DNA of 64,000 nucleotides from Deltaproteobacteria bacterium (GTDB taxonomy: Bacteria > Desulfobacterota > Dissulfuribacteria > Dissulfuribacterales > UBA3076): the NCBI GenBank assembly GCA_018399745.1, contig JAGYNZ010000007.1:1-64000 (forward strand), written 5' to 3'. The notes under the pieces were generated by a model. It was given only the letters and a program-made list of their open reading frames with translations. It was not told where the DNA came from and made no database searches. Within the stretch, counting starts at the first letter, position 1; the number at the start of each line of letters is the position of its first letter. This document shows, piece after piece, positions 5,402-10,974 of the stretch. The position numbers and the translations under genes are program-made.

Positions 5402-6655
5402 GTGGAACTAAAAGTCAGATCGTATGAAAAGATTGCCATATTAGTCAATAAAGGGGTGAACATTCCCAATCCATTGACGCTGGATATCGGCAACGAAGTC
5501 TCTCCTGACCACATTTCAGCCAATGGGGTGACAATCTATCCCGGTTGTCGGATTTATGGCAAAAATACGGTCATATCGGCTGGGACAGTGCTTGGCTGCG
5601 AAGCGCCGGTCACGATTGATGACTGCCAGCTCGGACCGAATGTCAAACTGCGGGGCGGCTATTTCAATAAGGCCGTGTTCCTCGAAAAGGCCAATCTGGG
5701 ATTGGGCTCGCACGTGCGTGCAGGGTGTATTCTGGAGGAAGAGGCTAACGGTGCCCATTGTGTAGGCTTGAAGCAGACCATTCTTTTCCCGTTTGTCACG
5801 CTGGGAAGCCTGATCAATTTCTGCGACTGTCTCATGGCAGGCGGAACAAGCCGGAAAGACCACAGCGAAGTCGGCAGTTCATTCATCCATTTCAATTTCA
5901 CACCGGACGGCGACAAGACAACCGCATCGCTGATCGGCGATGTGCCAAGGGGCGTCATGCTCAATCAACCCGCTATTTTTCTGGGCGGGCAGGGTGGTAT
6001 AGTCGGGCCTGCGCGTGTCGGCTTCGGTGATGTGATTGCCGCAGGGACCCTGTTACGCAAGGATATTGACGAGGAAAACAAGTTGGTCTTCGGCAAAGGC
6101 ATGTCAGGAGAAATAAAGGACCGACATCCCAACAGCTATACCTCCATCGGCCGCATTGTTGGTAACAACATCCGCTATCTGGCGAATCTGGTGGCTCTTG
6201 AACAATGGTATACACACGTCCGCCAGCCCTTTTTCCAGAAGCAGGAGTTCGGCGATCTTGTCTATGCCGGGGCCATGACAAACCTGTCGTTGGCAAAAGA
6301 CGAGCGTATTAAACGTCTCCAGGCTATGGCGGACAAAGCTAAAGCCGCTATTGGAAAATATCCAGATAAAAAACAGTTTGATGCCGGGAAACAGGAATTT
6401 TACGCCGCGGTCAAAACGATCCGGGACATATTTTTCCAACTTCCTGCAAACAACCTCGGTGCGGAGTGGCGCGATGGTTTTATTGCCTCGGTTCATACGC
6501 ACATCCAGGGCGGCGGTAAAAAATATATTGATTTTATCAAAGGTCTACCGGCCGATGCATCCAGAACAGGCGTACAATGGCTTGAGACCATCATTGAAAG
6601 GCTTTGTGGTGAAACGCAAGGGCTCATGCCGTCGTTGGACCTGTTCAAAAAGTAA
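5402..6655 (+). CDS. GlmU C-terminal-like left-handed beta-helix (hexapeptide) protein
   Basis: Hexapeptide-like repeats (GKNTVISAGTVLGCEAPVTIDDCQLGPNVKLRGG..., GGQGGIVGPARVGFGDVIAAGTLLRKDI); 417 aa; no recognisable pyrophosphorylase domain. Confidence 0.75.
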   Translation: MELKVRSYEKIAILVNKGVNIPNPLTLDIGNEVSPDHISANGVTIYPGCRIYGKNTVISAGTVLGCEAPVTIDDCQLGPNVKLRGGYFNKAVFLEKANLGLGSHVRAGCILEEEANGAHCVGLKQTILFPFVTLGSLINFCDCLMAGGTSRKDHSEVGSSFIHFNFTPDGDKTTASLIGDVPRGVMLNQPAIFLGGQGGIVGPARVGFGDVIAAGTLLRKDIDEENKLVFGKGMSGEIKDRHPNSYTSIGRIVGNNIRYLANLVALEQWYTHVRQPFFQKQEFGDLVYAGAMTNLSLAKDERIKRLQAMADKAKAAIGKYPDKKQFDAGKQEFYAAVKTIRDIFFQLPANNLGAEWRDGFIASVHTHIQGGGKKYIDFIKGLPADASRTGVQWLETIIERLCGETQGLMPSLDLFKK

Positions 6656-6688
6656 CCGTTCACATCTCTTTCAGAAGGAGTCAGTTAT

Positions 6689-8038
6689 ATGCGTCAATTA
6701 TTCGGTACAGACGGGATACGCGGGGAGGCCAATCGTTATCCCATGAATGCAATCATCGCCTTTTCGGTCGGACAGGCACTCACGTATCTTTTACGGACAC
6801 CTCATCATAAACCCAGGATCATTATCGGAAAAGATACCAGAATTTCGGGCTATATGCTGGAAAGCTCGCTTGAGGCCGGTATTACCTCCATGGGAGGGAT
6901 CTCATATTTGGTCGGTGTGCTGCCGACGCCCGGTATTGCCTTTTTGACACAGAGTATGCGCGCGGATTCCGGCATTGTGATCTCTGCTTCGCATAATCCG
7001 TTTCAGGACAATGGAATCAAGATCTTCGCAGGTAATGGCTTAAAATTGTCAGATGAACAGGAGGATACGATCGAGAAGCTGATCCTTGGAGGCAAACTGC
7101 CCGATATGGTGCCGCCTGCGGCAGAGATCGGATACGCATATCGGATCGAAGATGCGCGTGGCCGGTATATCGTATTTCTGAAGAACACCTTTCCCCGTGC
7201 CCTGTCTATGGAGGGAATGAAGATTGTCCTGGATACCGGCAACGGAGCCGCCTACAAAGTTGCGCCGGATACATTTTGGGAGCTCGGCGCAGAGGTAGAT
7301 GTCATTCACAATGACCCGAACGGTCTCAATATCAATGACAATTGCGGTTCACAGTATACCAATGACCTGAAAAAACGGGTCCTGGAAACAGGTGCGGCCA
7401 TCGGACTCGCCTTTGATGGGGATGCCGATCGTCTCATTGCCGTGGATGAAAAAGGGAACGAGATCACCGGCGATCAGATCGCGATCATCTGCGCCAAGGC
7501 ATTAAAAGAAGCGGGCCTGCTGAAAAATGACCTGCTTGTCACGACTGTAATGAGTAATCTCGGTCTTATCATCGCTTGCAAAAAGTATGGTATTAAACAC
7601 CATGCGGCGAAAGTGGGAGACCGGTATGTCCTGGAAGACATGAGGCGTTTGGGGAGCATTATCGGCGGCGAGGATTCGGGCCACCTGATTTTTCTAGACC
7701 ATCATACCACTGGCGACGGCACGCTGACTGCCATGCAGTTAATTGCCGTTATGGTAAAAACCGGCAAACCTTTGTCTGAGCTTGCCAAACTCATGGATGT
7801 CTTTCCGCAAAGGCTTATCAATGTTCCGGTCAAAAGCAAACCAGAACTCGATACTGTGCCTCAGGTCATGGACATCATCAAACAGGTTGAGCAAGAACTT
7901 GGTGAAAGCGGACGCGTGCTGGTGCGCTATTCAGGCACCCAGAATCTCTGCCGTGTGATGGTTGAAGGTCCCACCATCGACTTAACTGAAAAATACTGCC
8001 AGCAGATTGCCCATGTGTTACAGACCGCGATAAAATAA
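6689..8038 (+). CDS. glmM: Phosphoglucosamine mutase-like protein
   Basis: FGTDGIRGEAN, ISASHNPFQDNGIKIF, DGDADR, RYSGTQNLCRVMVEG motifs; RBS GAAGGAG upstream. Confidence 0.88.
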   Translation: MRQLFGTDGIRGEANRYPMNAIIAFSVGQALTYLLRTPHHKPRIIIGKDTRISGYMLESSLEAGITSMGGISYLVGVLPTPGIAFLTQSMRADSGIVISASHNPFQDNGIKIFAGNGLKLSDEQEDTIEKLILGGKLPDMVPPAAEIGYAYRIEDARGRYIVFLKNTFPRALSMEGMKIVLDTGNGAAYKVAPDTFWELGAEVDVIHNDPNGLNINDNCGSQYTNDLKKRVLETGAAIGLAFDGDADRLIAVDEKGNEITGDQIAIICAKALKEAGLLKNDLLVTTVMSNLGLIIACKKYGIKHHAAKVGDRYVLEDMRRLGSIIGGEDSGHLIFLDHHTTGDGTLTAMQLIAVMVKTGKPLSELAKLMDVFPQRLINVPVKSKPELDTVPQVMDIIKQVEQELGESGRVLVRYSGTQNLCRVMVEGPTIDLTEKYCQQIAHVLQTAIK

Positions 8039-8055
8039 GAGAAGAGGATATTTAC

Positions 8056-9012
8056 ATGCCGATCAACGTGTTTGTCACCAATGATTTTGACCAGATGAGC
8101 AAGGTCGCCGCAAAAATCGTAAAAGAAAACATTATCACCACGCTTACTGCAAAAAAAAAGTTCGTCCTTGGACTGGCCACCGGAAATTCACCCACCAGCC
8201 TCTACAAGCACCTTGCTATGGCGGCCAATGCCGGTGAATTCGACAGCGCAAGGATTCGCAGTTTCAACCTCGATGAATATGTCGGGTTGCCCGGCGAAAA
8301 TGTCCAGCAGCGACTATTGCATCCCGAAAGTTACAGTTTTTTTATGATTCAGGAATTTTTCGGCCTGCTGAAACGGAAATTCATTGAGACGAGTGTGCCG
8401 TACGGCGCAATGATCGACCAGAAACGCATGATGCAGGAATTTGCAGCAAACCCTGACGATTGGGACGAATCAGGCGTTGATGCCGGAAAGGCTATTGTGA
8501 TTAAACCGGACGCCGCCTCTGAATATCTTGCATGGATTCGTTATGACGTCCTGGAAAGCTATGAAAAGAAAATTGCCAACGCCGGCGGCATAGACCTACA
8601 GATTATTGGCTCGGGCGGAAGGGGTCATGTTGCCTTTCATGAATCAGGCATACCATTTGATAACAGCCGGGTGATGCTGATCAAACTGGATGATAATACC
8701 GTTTCAAATGCGGTCACAGACGGCCATTTCAAGTCAAGGGACGATAGCCCTCGTTACGCGACCAGTATGGGCGCTGAGCTTGTCTATGAGGCCAAAACGG
8801 TCGTGCTCCTGGCCAATGGAGAGCGTAAGGCGAGACCTGTAGCAGAATCACTTCTCTGCGATCCCACACCTGACGTGCCGATTTCTTACGGCCAGATATA
8901 CGCCCGGAACGGCGGCAATCTGATCTATGTGCTCGATAAAGTGGCGGCGACTGATTTACTGGCCGATACGGATGCCCTGAAAAATAAAGGAATCACACTC
9001 GAGACGCTTTAA
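8056..9012 (+). CDS. Glucosamine-6-phosphate deaminase/isomerase (NagB)-like protein, divergent
   Basis: GLATGNSPTSLYKHL, FNLDEYVGLP, GSGGRGHVAFHESG motifs. Confidence 0.8.
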   Translation: MPINVFVTNDFDQMSKVAAKIVKENIITTLTAKKKFVLGLATGNSPTSLYKHLAMAANAGEFDSARIRSFNLDEYVGLPGENVQQRLLHPESYSFFMIQEFFGLLKRKFIETSVPYGAMIDQKRMMQEFAANPDDWDESGVDAGKAIVIKPDAASEYLAWIRYDVLESYEKKIANAGGIDLQIIGSGGRGHVAFHESGIPFDNSRVMLIKLDDNTVSNAVTDGHFKSRDDSPRYATSMGAELVYEAKTVVLLANGERKARPVAESLLCDPTPDVPISYGQIYARNGGNLIYVLDKVAATDLLADTDALKNKGITLETL

Positions 9013-9015
9013 ATC

Positions 9016-9942
9016 ATGCAGAAAATGGCCGTCAACCTGGAAGACAGAATTATCGCTCACATTCAACACACAGGTCCCCTGACAGGATCGGAACTCAGGG
9101 CATCGTTCAATGAAGAGAGCCTGATTCTGTGGCAGACCTGTTTGCGCTCTCCCAAACTTGTAACAACAAGGATTGGCACTCGATACCTGAGACTTGACAG
9201 TCGGGTAGACGGGTTCGCCCGTCTCTCTCCTTCAATTTTACGGGAGTTCCTGTCCTATTCGGTCATCGGCCTTATTGCTCATCCCCATCCCGTCTCACAA
9301 AAGGTGTCTGAAGTCACTGCTCATATTGAAAGGGTCAGCAAGCGCAAGTTTGACCTGGCTTATAGCATTGTTTCCAATCTCAGAAGGCAGCTCTGCGGGA
9401 TATGGAAAGACAACCTTCAGATCTGCTTCATTATTGCCGGGGACATTGTGTACAATATGGCCCATAATGTGCCCCGTCCCGAACGAAGCACCGGAGAGCT
9501 TGTCAAAGGTTCAGATATGGATTTGGTGGTTGTGCTCGAAGATAGCGCATCTGATGATGTGATAAAAAGTCTTGACGAGGCCATTTATAGTGAAAAATAC
9601 AGGGTGCTGACCTCGCCGGCATTGCGAGAAGAGATTGATTATATCGTCAAAAGGATGAGCCGGGTCAGGGAGCAGCTTCAGTTTGATACGTTCAAGCGCA
9701 TGATTGCCTGTAAGATTCTGGAGGAGGGTCGCTTGCTGTACGGAAGCGAGAATCTTTTTTTTGATATTAAAACACTGCTGAACACGCACTGGATCACGGC
9801 AAAGCTGGCGGAACTCGAGCAAAAGGCCCAGAACTTCCGGAAAAATGCAGAGGAATATCTTCTCGATGCCGACCCGGAAAAGGCCAAAAAGGAAAGTCTG
9901 TATTTATTTTATCCTTCTGAAGAATCAGAAGAATTTGAATAA
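9016..9942 (+). CDS. Uncharacterised Pol-beta superfamily nucleotidyltransferase-like protein
   Basis: GELVKGSDMDLVVVLED (GSxxD-type signature) and downstream EEIDYIVKR; starts 4 nt after the NagB-like ORF. Confidence 0.65.
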   Translation: MQKMAVNLEDRIIAHIQHTGPLTGSELRASFNEESLILWQTCLRSPKLVTTRIGTRYLRLDSRVDGFARLSPSILREFLSYSVIGLIAHPHPVSQKVSEVTAHIERVSKRKFDLAYSIVSNLRRQLCGIWKDNLQICFIIAGDIVYNMAHNVPRPERSTGELVKGSDMDLVVVLEDSASDDVIKSLDEAIYSEKYRVLTSPALREEIDYIVKRMSRVREQLQFDTFKRMIACKILEEGRLLYGSENLFFDIKTLLNTHWITAKLAELEQKAQNFRKNAEEYLLDADPEKAKKESLYLFYPSEESEEFE

Positions 9943-9966
9943 CATGAAGGTTTGAGGTGACATAAC

Positions 9967-10974
9967 ATGGTAAAAATTGTCACGATCGGCGGCGGCACCG
10001 GCGCACCGACCATTTTACGTGCCCTGATTAGAGCCGGATTTACGCAGATCACTGCTATCTGTACCGCAATGGATTCAGGCGGAAGGACTGGGACGATCCG
10101 TTCGGATGAACGCGACCGGGTAATTGCGGTCTCTGATTTATTGCGTAATTTGCTGGCGTTAATGCCGCCTCACAGCGCCGAAATGAACAACGTTACCATG
10201 TTTACCGAAATGTTAAACTTTTCAGACGGCCGCAACCGTAATCTTGGTTATACCATTTATTATGCCCTGTTAGAAAAATACAGAAACGACTATTTGCAGG
10301 TACAGCGCGCCCTGGAGCAACTATTGGGAATTCAGTTTATGGGACGCGCCATCCCAATTACCTCGATGTCGGCGAGTATTTGTTTTCTATCCATGGGAGG
10401 AATGATATATCATGGTGAGCACCAGTTGGACCTTTACGCGATGTCGCAAGATATGATTGCTAAAGTGTGGATTGAGCCAGTGGTGCCGGCTGTTCCTGAG
10501 GCCCTGGAAGCCATAGCCCAGGCCACTCATCTCATATTTTGTCCGGGCAGTCTCTATGGGTCGGTCATTGCAAACATGCTGCCCGCAGGCGTTATATCAG
10601 CTTTTCAAGAAACTCAGGCGACTAAAATTTTGATCAGCAATCTGGTCTCGGTACGCAACGAAACCCATAACTTTACCCCCTTGGATTATTGGCGTTTATT
10701 TCAAAACTACACCGGCCTGGAACGGCCTTTTGATATTATGGTGGTACCTGATTTGTCCAGAGAAACGTTTGAGCAGCAACATCCCGAAACAGCGGCGCAT
10801 TATGCTAAAGAATATTCCTATTTTTTGGGCTGGTCCGAGGCCGACCTGAAACCGTTACGTGATCAGAATGTCCACATTGAGCCGGCCGGCCACTATTCGT
10901 TAACCGTTCAATTTAATCGGCTGCGGCACGACCCTGATAAATTGGCGCACGTGTTAAAACGTTTGATTATTTAA
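9967..10974 (+). CDS. YvcK/CofD (GlmR)-like protein
   Basis: IVTIGGGTGAPTILRALI...MDSGGRTGTIR...LLRNLLALM and FCPGSLYGSVIANMLPAGV motifs. Confidence 0.82.
   Translation: MVKIVTIGGGTGAPTILRALIRAGFTQITAICTAMDSGGRTGTIRSDERDRVIAVSDLLRNLLALMPPHSAEMNNVTMFTEMLNFSDGRNRNLGYTIYYALLEKYRNDYLQVQRALEQLLGIQFMGRAIPITSMSASICFLSMGGMIYHGEHQLDLYAMSQDMIAKVWIEPVVPAVPEALEAIAQATHLIFCPGSLYGSVIANMLPAGVISAFQETQATKILISNLVSVRNETHNFTPLDYWRLFQNYTGLERPFDIMVVPDLSRETFEQQHPETAAHYAKEYSYFLGWSEADLKPLRDQNVHIEPAGHYSLTVQFNRLRHDPDKLAHVLKRLII

Follow-up and report, generated by a model that had tools for sequence, protein, structure and literature searches.

We describe a five-gene operon from a 64,000-nucleotide stretch of DNA (the window), which we read, with a probability of about 0.8, as a mobile operon with a housekeeping task, the synthesis of UDP-GlcNAc where GlmU is split. 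Nearly all bacteria must make UDP-GlcNAc, an essential building block of the cell wall, and the drug target GlmU is commonly regarded as a fused enzyme that is universal. In the scheme that we propose, GlmS, encoded elsewhere, would supply GlcN-6-P, the GlmM of the operon would convert it to GlcN-1-P, the hexapeptide protein of the operon (hex) would acetylate GlcN-1-P to GlcNAc-1-P, and a truncated GlmU encoded after atpC would make UDP-GlcNAc.

The operon and the identity of its genes

The earlier note on this DNA had described five same-strand open reading frames separated by 33, 17, 3 and 24 nt, and we confirmed both the coordinates and the gaps. The first gene, hex (5402..6655, + strand), encodes 417 aa that match only the C-terminal half of the bifunctional GlmU model (TIGR01173), with 46.7 bits against a cut-off of 366.85, which leaves the protein outside that family. 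It is followed by glmM (6689..8038, +; 449 aa), a true member of the GlmM equivalog TIGR01455 (570.6 bits, cut-off 447.55, model positions 1-441 of 442), and by the gene of a NagB-like protein (8056..9012, +; 318 aa) that stays below the NagB equivalog cut-off (TIGR00502, 142.2 against 236.9 bits). The fourth gene (9016..9942, +; 308 aa) encodes an orphan nucleotidyltransferase, NT, with a sub-threshold NTP_transf_2 match (E 0.0034), and the fifth (9967..10974, +; 335 aa) a CofD/YvcK(GlmR)-like protein with 136.9 bits to the YvcK/GlmR subfamily (TIGR01826, cut-off 196), also outside it. In scans for promoters and terminators, promoter-like sites were no more frequent than in shuffles, and terminator-like sites were within one standard deviation. 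The note had stressed the orphan NT; the key novelty proved to be hex, not NT alone.

Hex is related to the acetyltransferase domain of GlmU

In a profile-versus-profile comparison (hhalign), residues 8-238 of hex aligned with residues 241-446 of full-length GlmU (probability 98.4, E 4e-15), a match that spans the whole acetyltransferase domain, linker included. The left-handed beta-helix of hex comprises residues ~8-238, and homology to the GlmU-type GlcN-1-P acetyltransferase domain was found over it. By these sequence criteria, hex is a diverged stand-alone GlmU-type left-handed beta-helix acetyltransferase domain. Like the C-terminal domain of GlmU (TIGR01173), it has the beta-helix along the whole domain, and its gene, like that of GlmU, is linked with glmM and glmS genes. 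Unlike GlmU, it is encoded alone, without a uridylyltransferase domain, and carries an extra, unique C-terminal helical domain of ~170 aa (~250-417).

Regarding the active site, we take R333, K351, H363, Y366, N377 and N386 to be the catalytic and substrate residues of GlmU, and His363 to be its general base. Residues R106, K124, H154, H163 and N165 of hex were invariant in all 30 aligned sequences. Arg106 and Lys124 stand at a spacing identical to that of Arg333 and Lys351, and Asn165 is the equivalent of Asn386; unlike in GlmU, the position of His363 is taken, in a gap-free alignment, by an invariant serine (Ser136), and that of Tyr366 by Asn139. The invariant block 121-203 is rewired with respect to GlmU, the active-site block has an insertion of ~6 residues, and both His154 and His163 lie in the rewired loop near it. 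Since the arginine, lysine and asparagine equivalents are invariant but Ser136 stands in the place of His363, the domain appears to be catalytically active, though in a modified form. If hex shares the chemistry of GlmU, then one of the invariant His154 or His163 must serve as the base. The AlphaFold model of hex is helical in its C-terminal region and poor at residues 113-220, the active-site region, so we draw no structural conclusion for that region. A fold search with this model, poor as it is at the active site, gave no significant match, and a search for hex on plasmids gave none.

The operon carries the only GlmM of the genome

We then ran targeted searches for the pathway in the window's genome (2.65 Mb, 97.5% complete). 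GlmS, outside the operon, is canonical (810 bits). The only GlmU, encoded after atpC, has 343 aa and matches model positions 3-317 of 452, that is, the uridylyltransferase domain plus a few beta-helix turns, without the acetyltransferase active site. As to whether canonical glmS and glmU lie elsewhere, a check that the earlier note had suggested, GlmS and the uridylyltransferase domain of GlmU are thus present and the acetyltransferase half is absent. Further matches to GlmU-C in this genome score weakly and resemble LpxA/LpxD-type or short beta-helix proteins. The operon would then supply the only GlcN-1-P acetyltransferase of this genome.

The operon glmM is the sole intact copy and the only GlmM in the genome. 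In a phylogenetic tree, its product groups with cassette GlmMs of distant taxa and other phyla (100/100), and the GlmMs of the window's order-mates form a separate cluster without it (100/97), a position by which the operon GlmM is assigned to the cassette lineage. An amino-sugar-nucleotide module, as had been proposed for these genes, does hold together, with co-occurrence kept far beyond close relatives; that it would be additional to the normal pathway is ruled out because the operon GlmM is the only one.

Three nearly exclusive acetyltransferase solutions in the phylum

Our phylum sample consisted of 297 genomes from Desulfobacterota, the phylum of the window. Strong matches were found in 60 of them for hex (>290 bits), in 28 for the NagB-like protein (>400 bits) and in 21 for NT. 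Three solutions for acetylation are nearly exclusive in the sample: a full GlmU, a truncated GlmU with a ~270-aa archaeal-type acetyltransferase, or hex, mostly with a truncated GlmU. Among the 294 scorable genomes, 132 had full GlmU alone, 73 the ~270-aa enzyme alone and 53 hex alone; ten had any two solutions, and in 26 none was found. Full GlmU and hex occurred together in six genomes, three of them with 6-9% contamination. Fisher p-values for exclusivity were tiny but inflated by the kinship of the genomes, so swaps within families weigh more. In family f15, four genomes have full GlmU without hex (G045, G081, G111, G215) and three have truncated GlmU plus hex (G007, G140, G258), with the truncated glmU directly upstream of glmS in G007 and G258. 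The same swap separates G177 and G201 from G097, G224, G125, G245 and G266 in f60, and G034 and G294 from G104 and G133 in f41, where G071 and G209 carry both. In families f40, f55 and f92, hex is present and the GlmU-like match is weak (~100 bits). Another hex-bearing genome has a GlmU frame that is interrupted by several stops downstream of the uridylyltransferase domain (G160:C197:4409-5512), perhaps an acetyltransferase domain in decay.

The stand-alone ~270-aa acetyltransferase occurs in ~78 of the 297 genomes, usually with truncated GlmU (e.g. L290:4956-5765, L291:4632-5441 and L292:4608-5426), and co-occurs with NT in 4 of the 21 NT genomes. Among PDB structures, the family comes closest to the acetyltransferase half of Sulfolobus ST0452; the enzyme of the window's order-mates matches ST0452 with E 6e-28, and the match takes in the aGHfaYiGDS...vNmGAGT block. 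The GlmU-like active-site block is present in those order-mate proteins whose sequences we read completely. The order-mates of the window have truncated GlmU and no hex; the ~270-aa beta-helix protein was found in all six that we examined closely, and in 11 of the 11 in the phylum sample. Having neither hex nor full GlmU, these order-mates had seemed to have lost acetylation and so to speak against our reading, an objection that the ~270-aa enzyme removes. ST0452 itself (PDB 2ggo, 5z09) is a dual sugar-1-phosphate nucleotidylyltransferase/amino-sugar acetyltransferase whose C-domain resembles the ~270-aa enzyme. Both ST0452-type proteins and hex are alternatives to GlmU-C; unlike the former, hex is a separate lineage without the aGHfaYiGDS...vNmGAGT block, and it replaces the ~270-aa enzyme in the window's genome.

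Remnants of the ancestral genes

The order-mates have glmM downstream of folP-cdaA-ybbR, and in several of them it is directly adjacent to ftsZ. Between ybbR and ftsZ, the window's genome has a glmM remnant of ~390 bp, with fragments corresponding to residues 1-20, 45-67, 267-307 and 401-447. Likewise, the gene of the ~270-aa acetyltransferase is intact in the order-mates, beside a peptidyl-prolyl-isomerase-like gene, and what is left of it at the syntenic place in the window's genome is ~300 bp disrupted by frameshifts and stops. Both remnants lie inside contigs, far from their ends. Given that both ancestral genes are decayed and the operon glmM is the sole intact copy, the most economical interpretation is a horizontal acquisition of the cassette, which rendered both dispensable: an ancestor with glmM in a folP-cdaA-ybbR-glmM operon and the archaeal-type acetyltransferase would have gained the cassette, after which the two old genes would have decayed. 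Such a displacement would amount, on the same interpretation, to a natural complementation, in which the cassette GlmM took the place of its predecessor and hex that of the ~270-aa acetyltransferase. This natural-replacement evidence makes hex a strong candidate for a GlcN-1-P N-acetyltransferase.

One could argue that hex acetylates another amino-sugar phosphate or nucleotide and that an unrecognised enzyme acetylates GlcN-1-P, given that the active-site block departs from GlmU, with His363 replaced and the insertion, and that full GlmU and hex coexist in a few genomes. We regard this as quite unlikely: the partner of hex is the sole GlmM, hex seldom shares a genome with either of the other two solutions for GlcN-1-P acetylation, it is present where the ancestral enzyme decayed, and what else resembles GlmU-C in the genome is weak and looks like LpxA/LpxD-type or short beta-helix proteins.

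Spread of the cassette

Gene neighbourhoods of NT showed that the order hex-glmM-nagB-NT recurs in several families, at ~50-77% identity. A profile scan gave at least 562 hex relatives in named genomes, of which 80 loci were kept for neighbourhood counts. In these, glmM adjoins hex in 77, the NagB-like gene is near hex in 46 and NT in 29. The core is therefore the hex-glmM pair, with the NagB-like gene usually next and NT often. Record titles of the metagenome-assembled genomes with the cassette include Deltaproteobacteria/Thermodesulfobacteriota, Actinobacteria, Nitrospirae, Kiritimatiellae and Aminicenantes, and the operon appears widely conserved and horizontally spread. Co-occurrence of all five families, the check raised in the earlier note, held for four of them, whose order is the same in many families and in several phyla; in this arrangement, the YvcK-like gene was seen only in the window. 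Since four of five families recur in this way, the grouping is far above chance. Mere synteny of unrelated amino-sugar genes is hardly credible against this recurrence and the 77 hex-glmM loci, even if NT occurs without the cassette in three genomes (G132, G033, G103) and the NagB-like gene without hex in two (G010, G084).

Recurrent neighbours of hex are canonical GlmS, truncated GlmU, RapZ, YvcK, CofD-like proteins and a GlmS-like giant. The giant, of ~1,250-1,320 aa, lies beside hex-glmM(-nagB) in L121, L122, L123, L124, L129, L132 and L133, and consists of a GlmS core flanked by ~350-aa extensions (e.g. L122:13184-16957, - strand); some of these genomes have glnA, carA and carB alongside. 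A CofD/YvcK-like protein of about 740-746 aa adjoins hex in four loci (L127:7494-9734, L128:7832-10072, L134:5091-7286 and L135:2041-4245). Because three of these four genomes give only a weak GlmU uridylyltransferase match, this protein might act as a uridylyltransferase. Finally, rapZ genes lie near hex, glmM or NT (L037:8954-9823, L038:12835-13734, L053:578-1471, L127:9782-10747 and L128:10121-11086), a proximity that links the cassette with known GlcN-6-P sensing.

The NagB-like, NT and YvcK-like proteins

We take Asp72, Asp141, His143, Glu148 and Lys208 to be the functional residues of NagB. The NagB-like protein, which has a ~50-aa insertion in its middle, keeps the equivalents of Asp72, His143, Glu148 and Lys208, and Asp141 is replaced by Arg or Lys in all 21 sequences. 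It probably balances GlcN-6-P against fructose-6-P.

The residues G165, S166, D167, D169 and D208 of NT are invariant and form the catalytic pattern GSD-x-D ... E-x-D, which fits hG[GS]x...DxD...D. The NT sequence gave no match among solved structures, and its Pfam match is under the gathering score; its predicted structure (pLDDT 82) gave the MntA antitoxin (E 4e-4, probability 1.0) and ANT(9) as best PDB matches in Foldseek (E 4e-4 to 0.03). Pattern and fold match together point to an MNT/ANT-type nucleotidyltransferase fold, preceded by N-terminal helices and strands that are predicted to form a winged-helix-like region. The acidic C-terminus EESEEFE is conserved in the NT of the window (9016-9942) and its homologues, and is perhaps a docking or self-inhibitory tail. 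We infer that NT is a regulator acting by nucleotidyl transfer.

The YvcK-like protein has 2ppv and 2hzb as PDB relatives by sequence and, by analogy, may be a UDP-GlcNAc sensor or an accessory uridylyltransferase; together with NT, it would probably regulate or assist the pathway. Among the loci examined, its gene stands at the operon end, after NT, only in this window. A core role in the operon is ruled out because gene neighbourhoods in other genomes differ; similar proteins do adjoin hex there, and the gene is a loosely attached, optional neighbour. RapZ, YvcK or CofD-like genes next to hex in some genomes recall the GlmR/YvcK-YvcJ (RapZ) regulatory genes, from which the YvcK-like protein of the window differs in being divergent, below the cut-off and placed after NT.

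For the GlmR/YvcK of firmicutes, in vitro formation of UDP-GlcNAc from GlcNAc-1-P and UTP has been shown (PMC10128056). The operon could be a self-contained route that starts from fructose-6-phosphate and ammonia and ends at UDP-GlcNAc: the NagB-like enzyme would run in reverse, GlmM and hex would follow, the YvcK-like protein would serve as uridylyltransferase, and NT would be the regulator. The NagB-like protein does keep most catalytic residues, and large CofD-like proteins adjoin hex where the GlmU match is weak. We hold this route to be decidedly unlikely, considering that the genome has GlmS and the GlmU uridylyltransferase domain, that Asp141 of NagB is changed, and that the YvcK-like protein is both below the YvcK cut-off and peculiar to this window in its place after NT. 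A bolder version is also unlikely: a horizontally moving five-gene cassette that forms a complete second UDP-GlcNAc route and can supplant the essential pathway already in the cell, with the NagB-like protein as an ammonia-dependent GlcN-6-P source, hex as a new acetyltransferase class, the CofD/YvcK-like protein as uridylyltransferase and NT as a new nucleotidylylating regulator.

Discussion

The main reading, a mobile operon serving UDP-GlcNAc synthesis where GlmU is split, has several observations counting against it, namely Ser136 in the place of His363, the six genomes with both full GlmU and hex, the 26 with no solution, the weak GlmU-like match in f40, f55 and f92, the phylogenetic relatedness of the genomes counted, and an AlphaFold model of hex that fails just where the active site should be. 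Compared with the classical GlmS-GlmM-GlmU pathway, the intermediates would be the same, and GlmS and GlmM are true members; in contrast to it, GlmU is split in two unlinked genes, and acetyltransferase and mutase travel as a cassette. We rate the pathway as known and the acetyltransferase class and gene organisation, as judged from sequence, as new. The open-access papers that we searched yielded no account of hex and its relatives, of the cassette or of the replacement, and none of a bacterial GlmU acetyltransferase that stands alone or is non-orthologous, or of GlmM/GlmU in Syntrophus. GlmU without the acetyltransferase domain has been described in some bacteria, e.g. Chlorobaculum limnaeum (PMC7725333), and the domain-wise essentiality of GlmU in Planctopirus (PMC10632474).

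According to these results, many genomes of the phylum lack a fused GlmU and are predicted to use one of two stand-alone acetyltransferases. The genome of the window preserves the aftermath of a replacement: the cassette is there, and the two older genes survive as remnants at their original sites. In the light of these acetyltransferase families, published surveys that infer pathway loss from a GlmU without its acetyltransferase domain (e.g. PMC7725333) could be re-examined.
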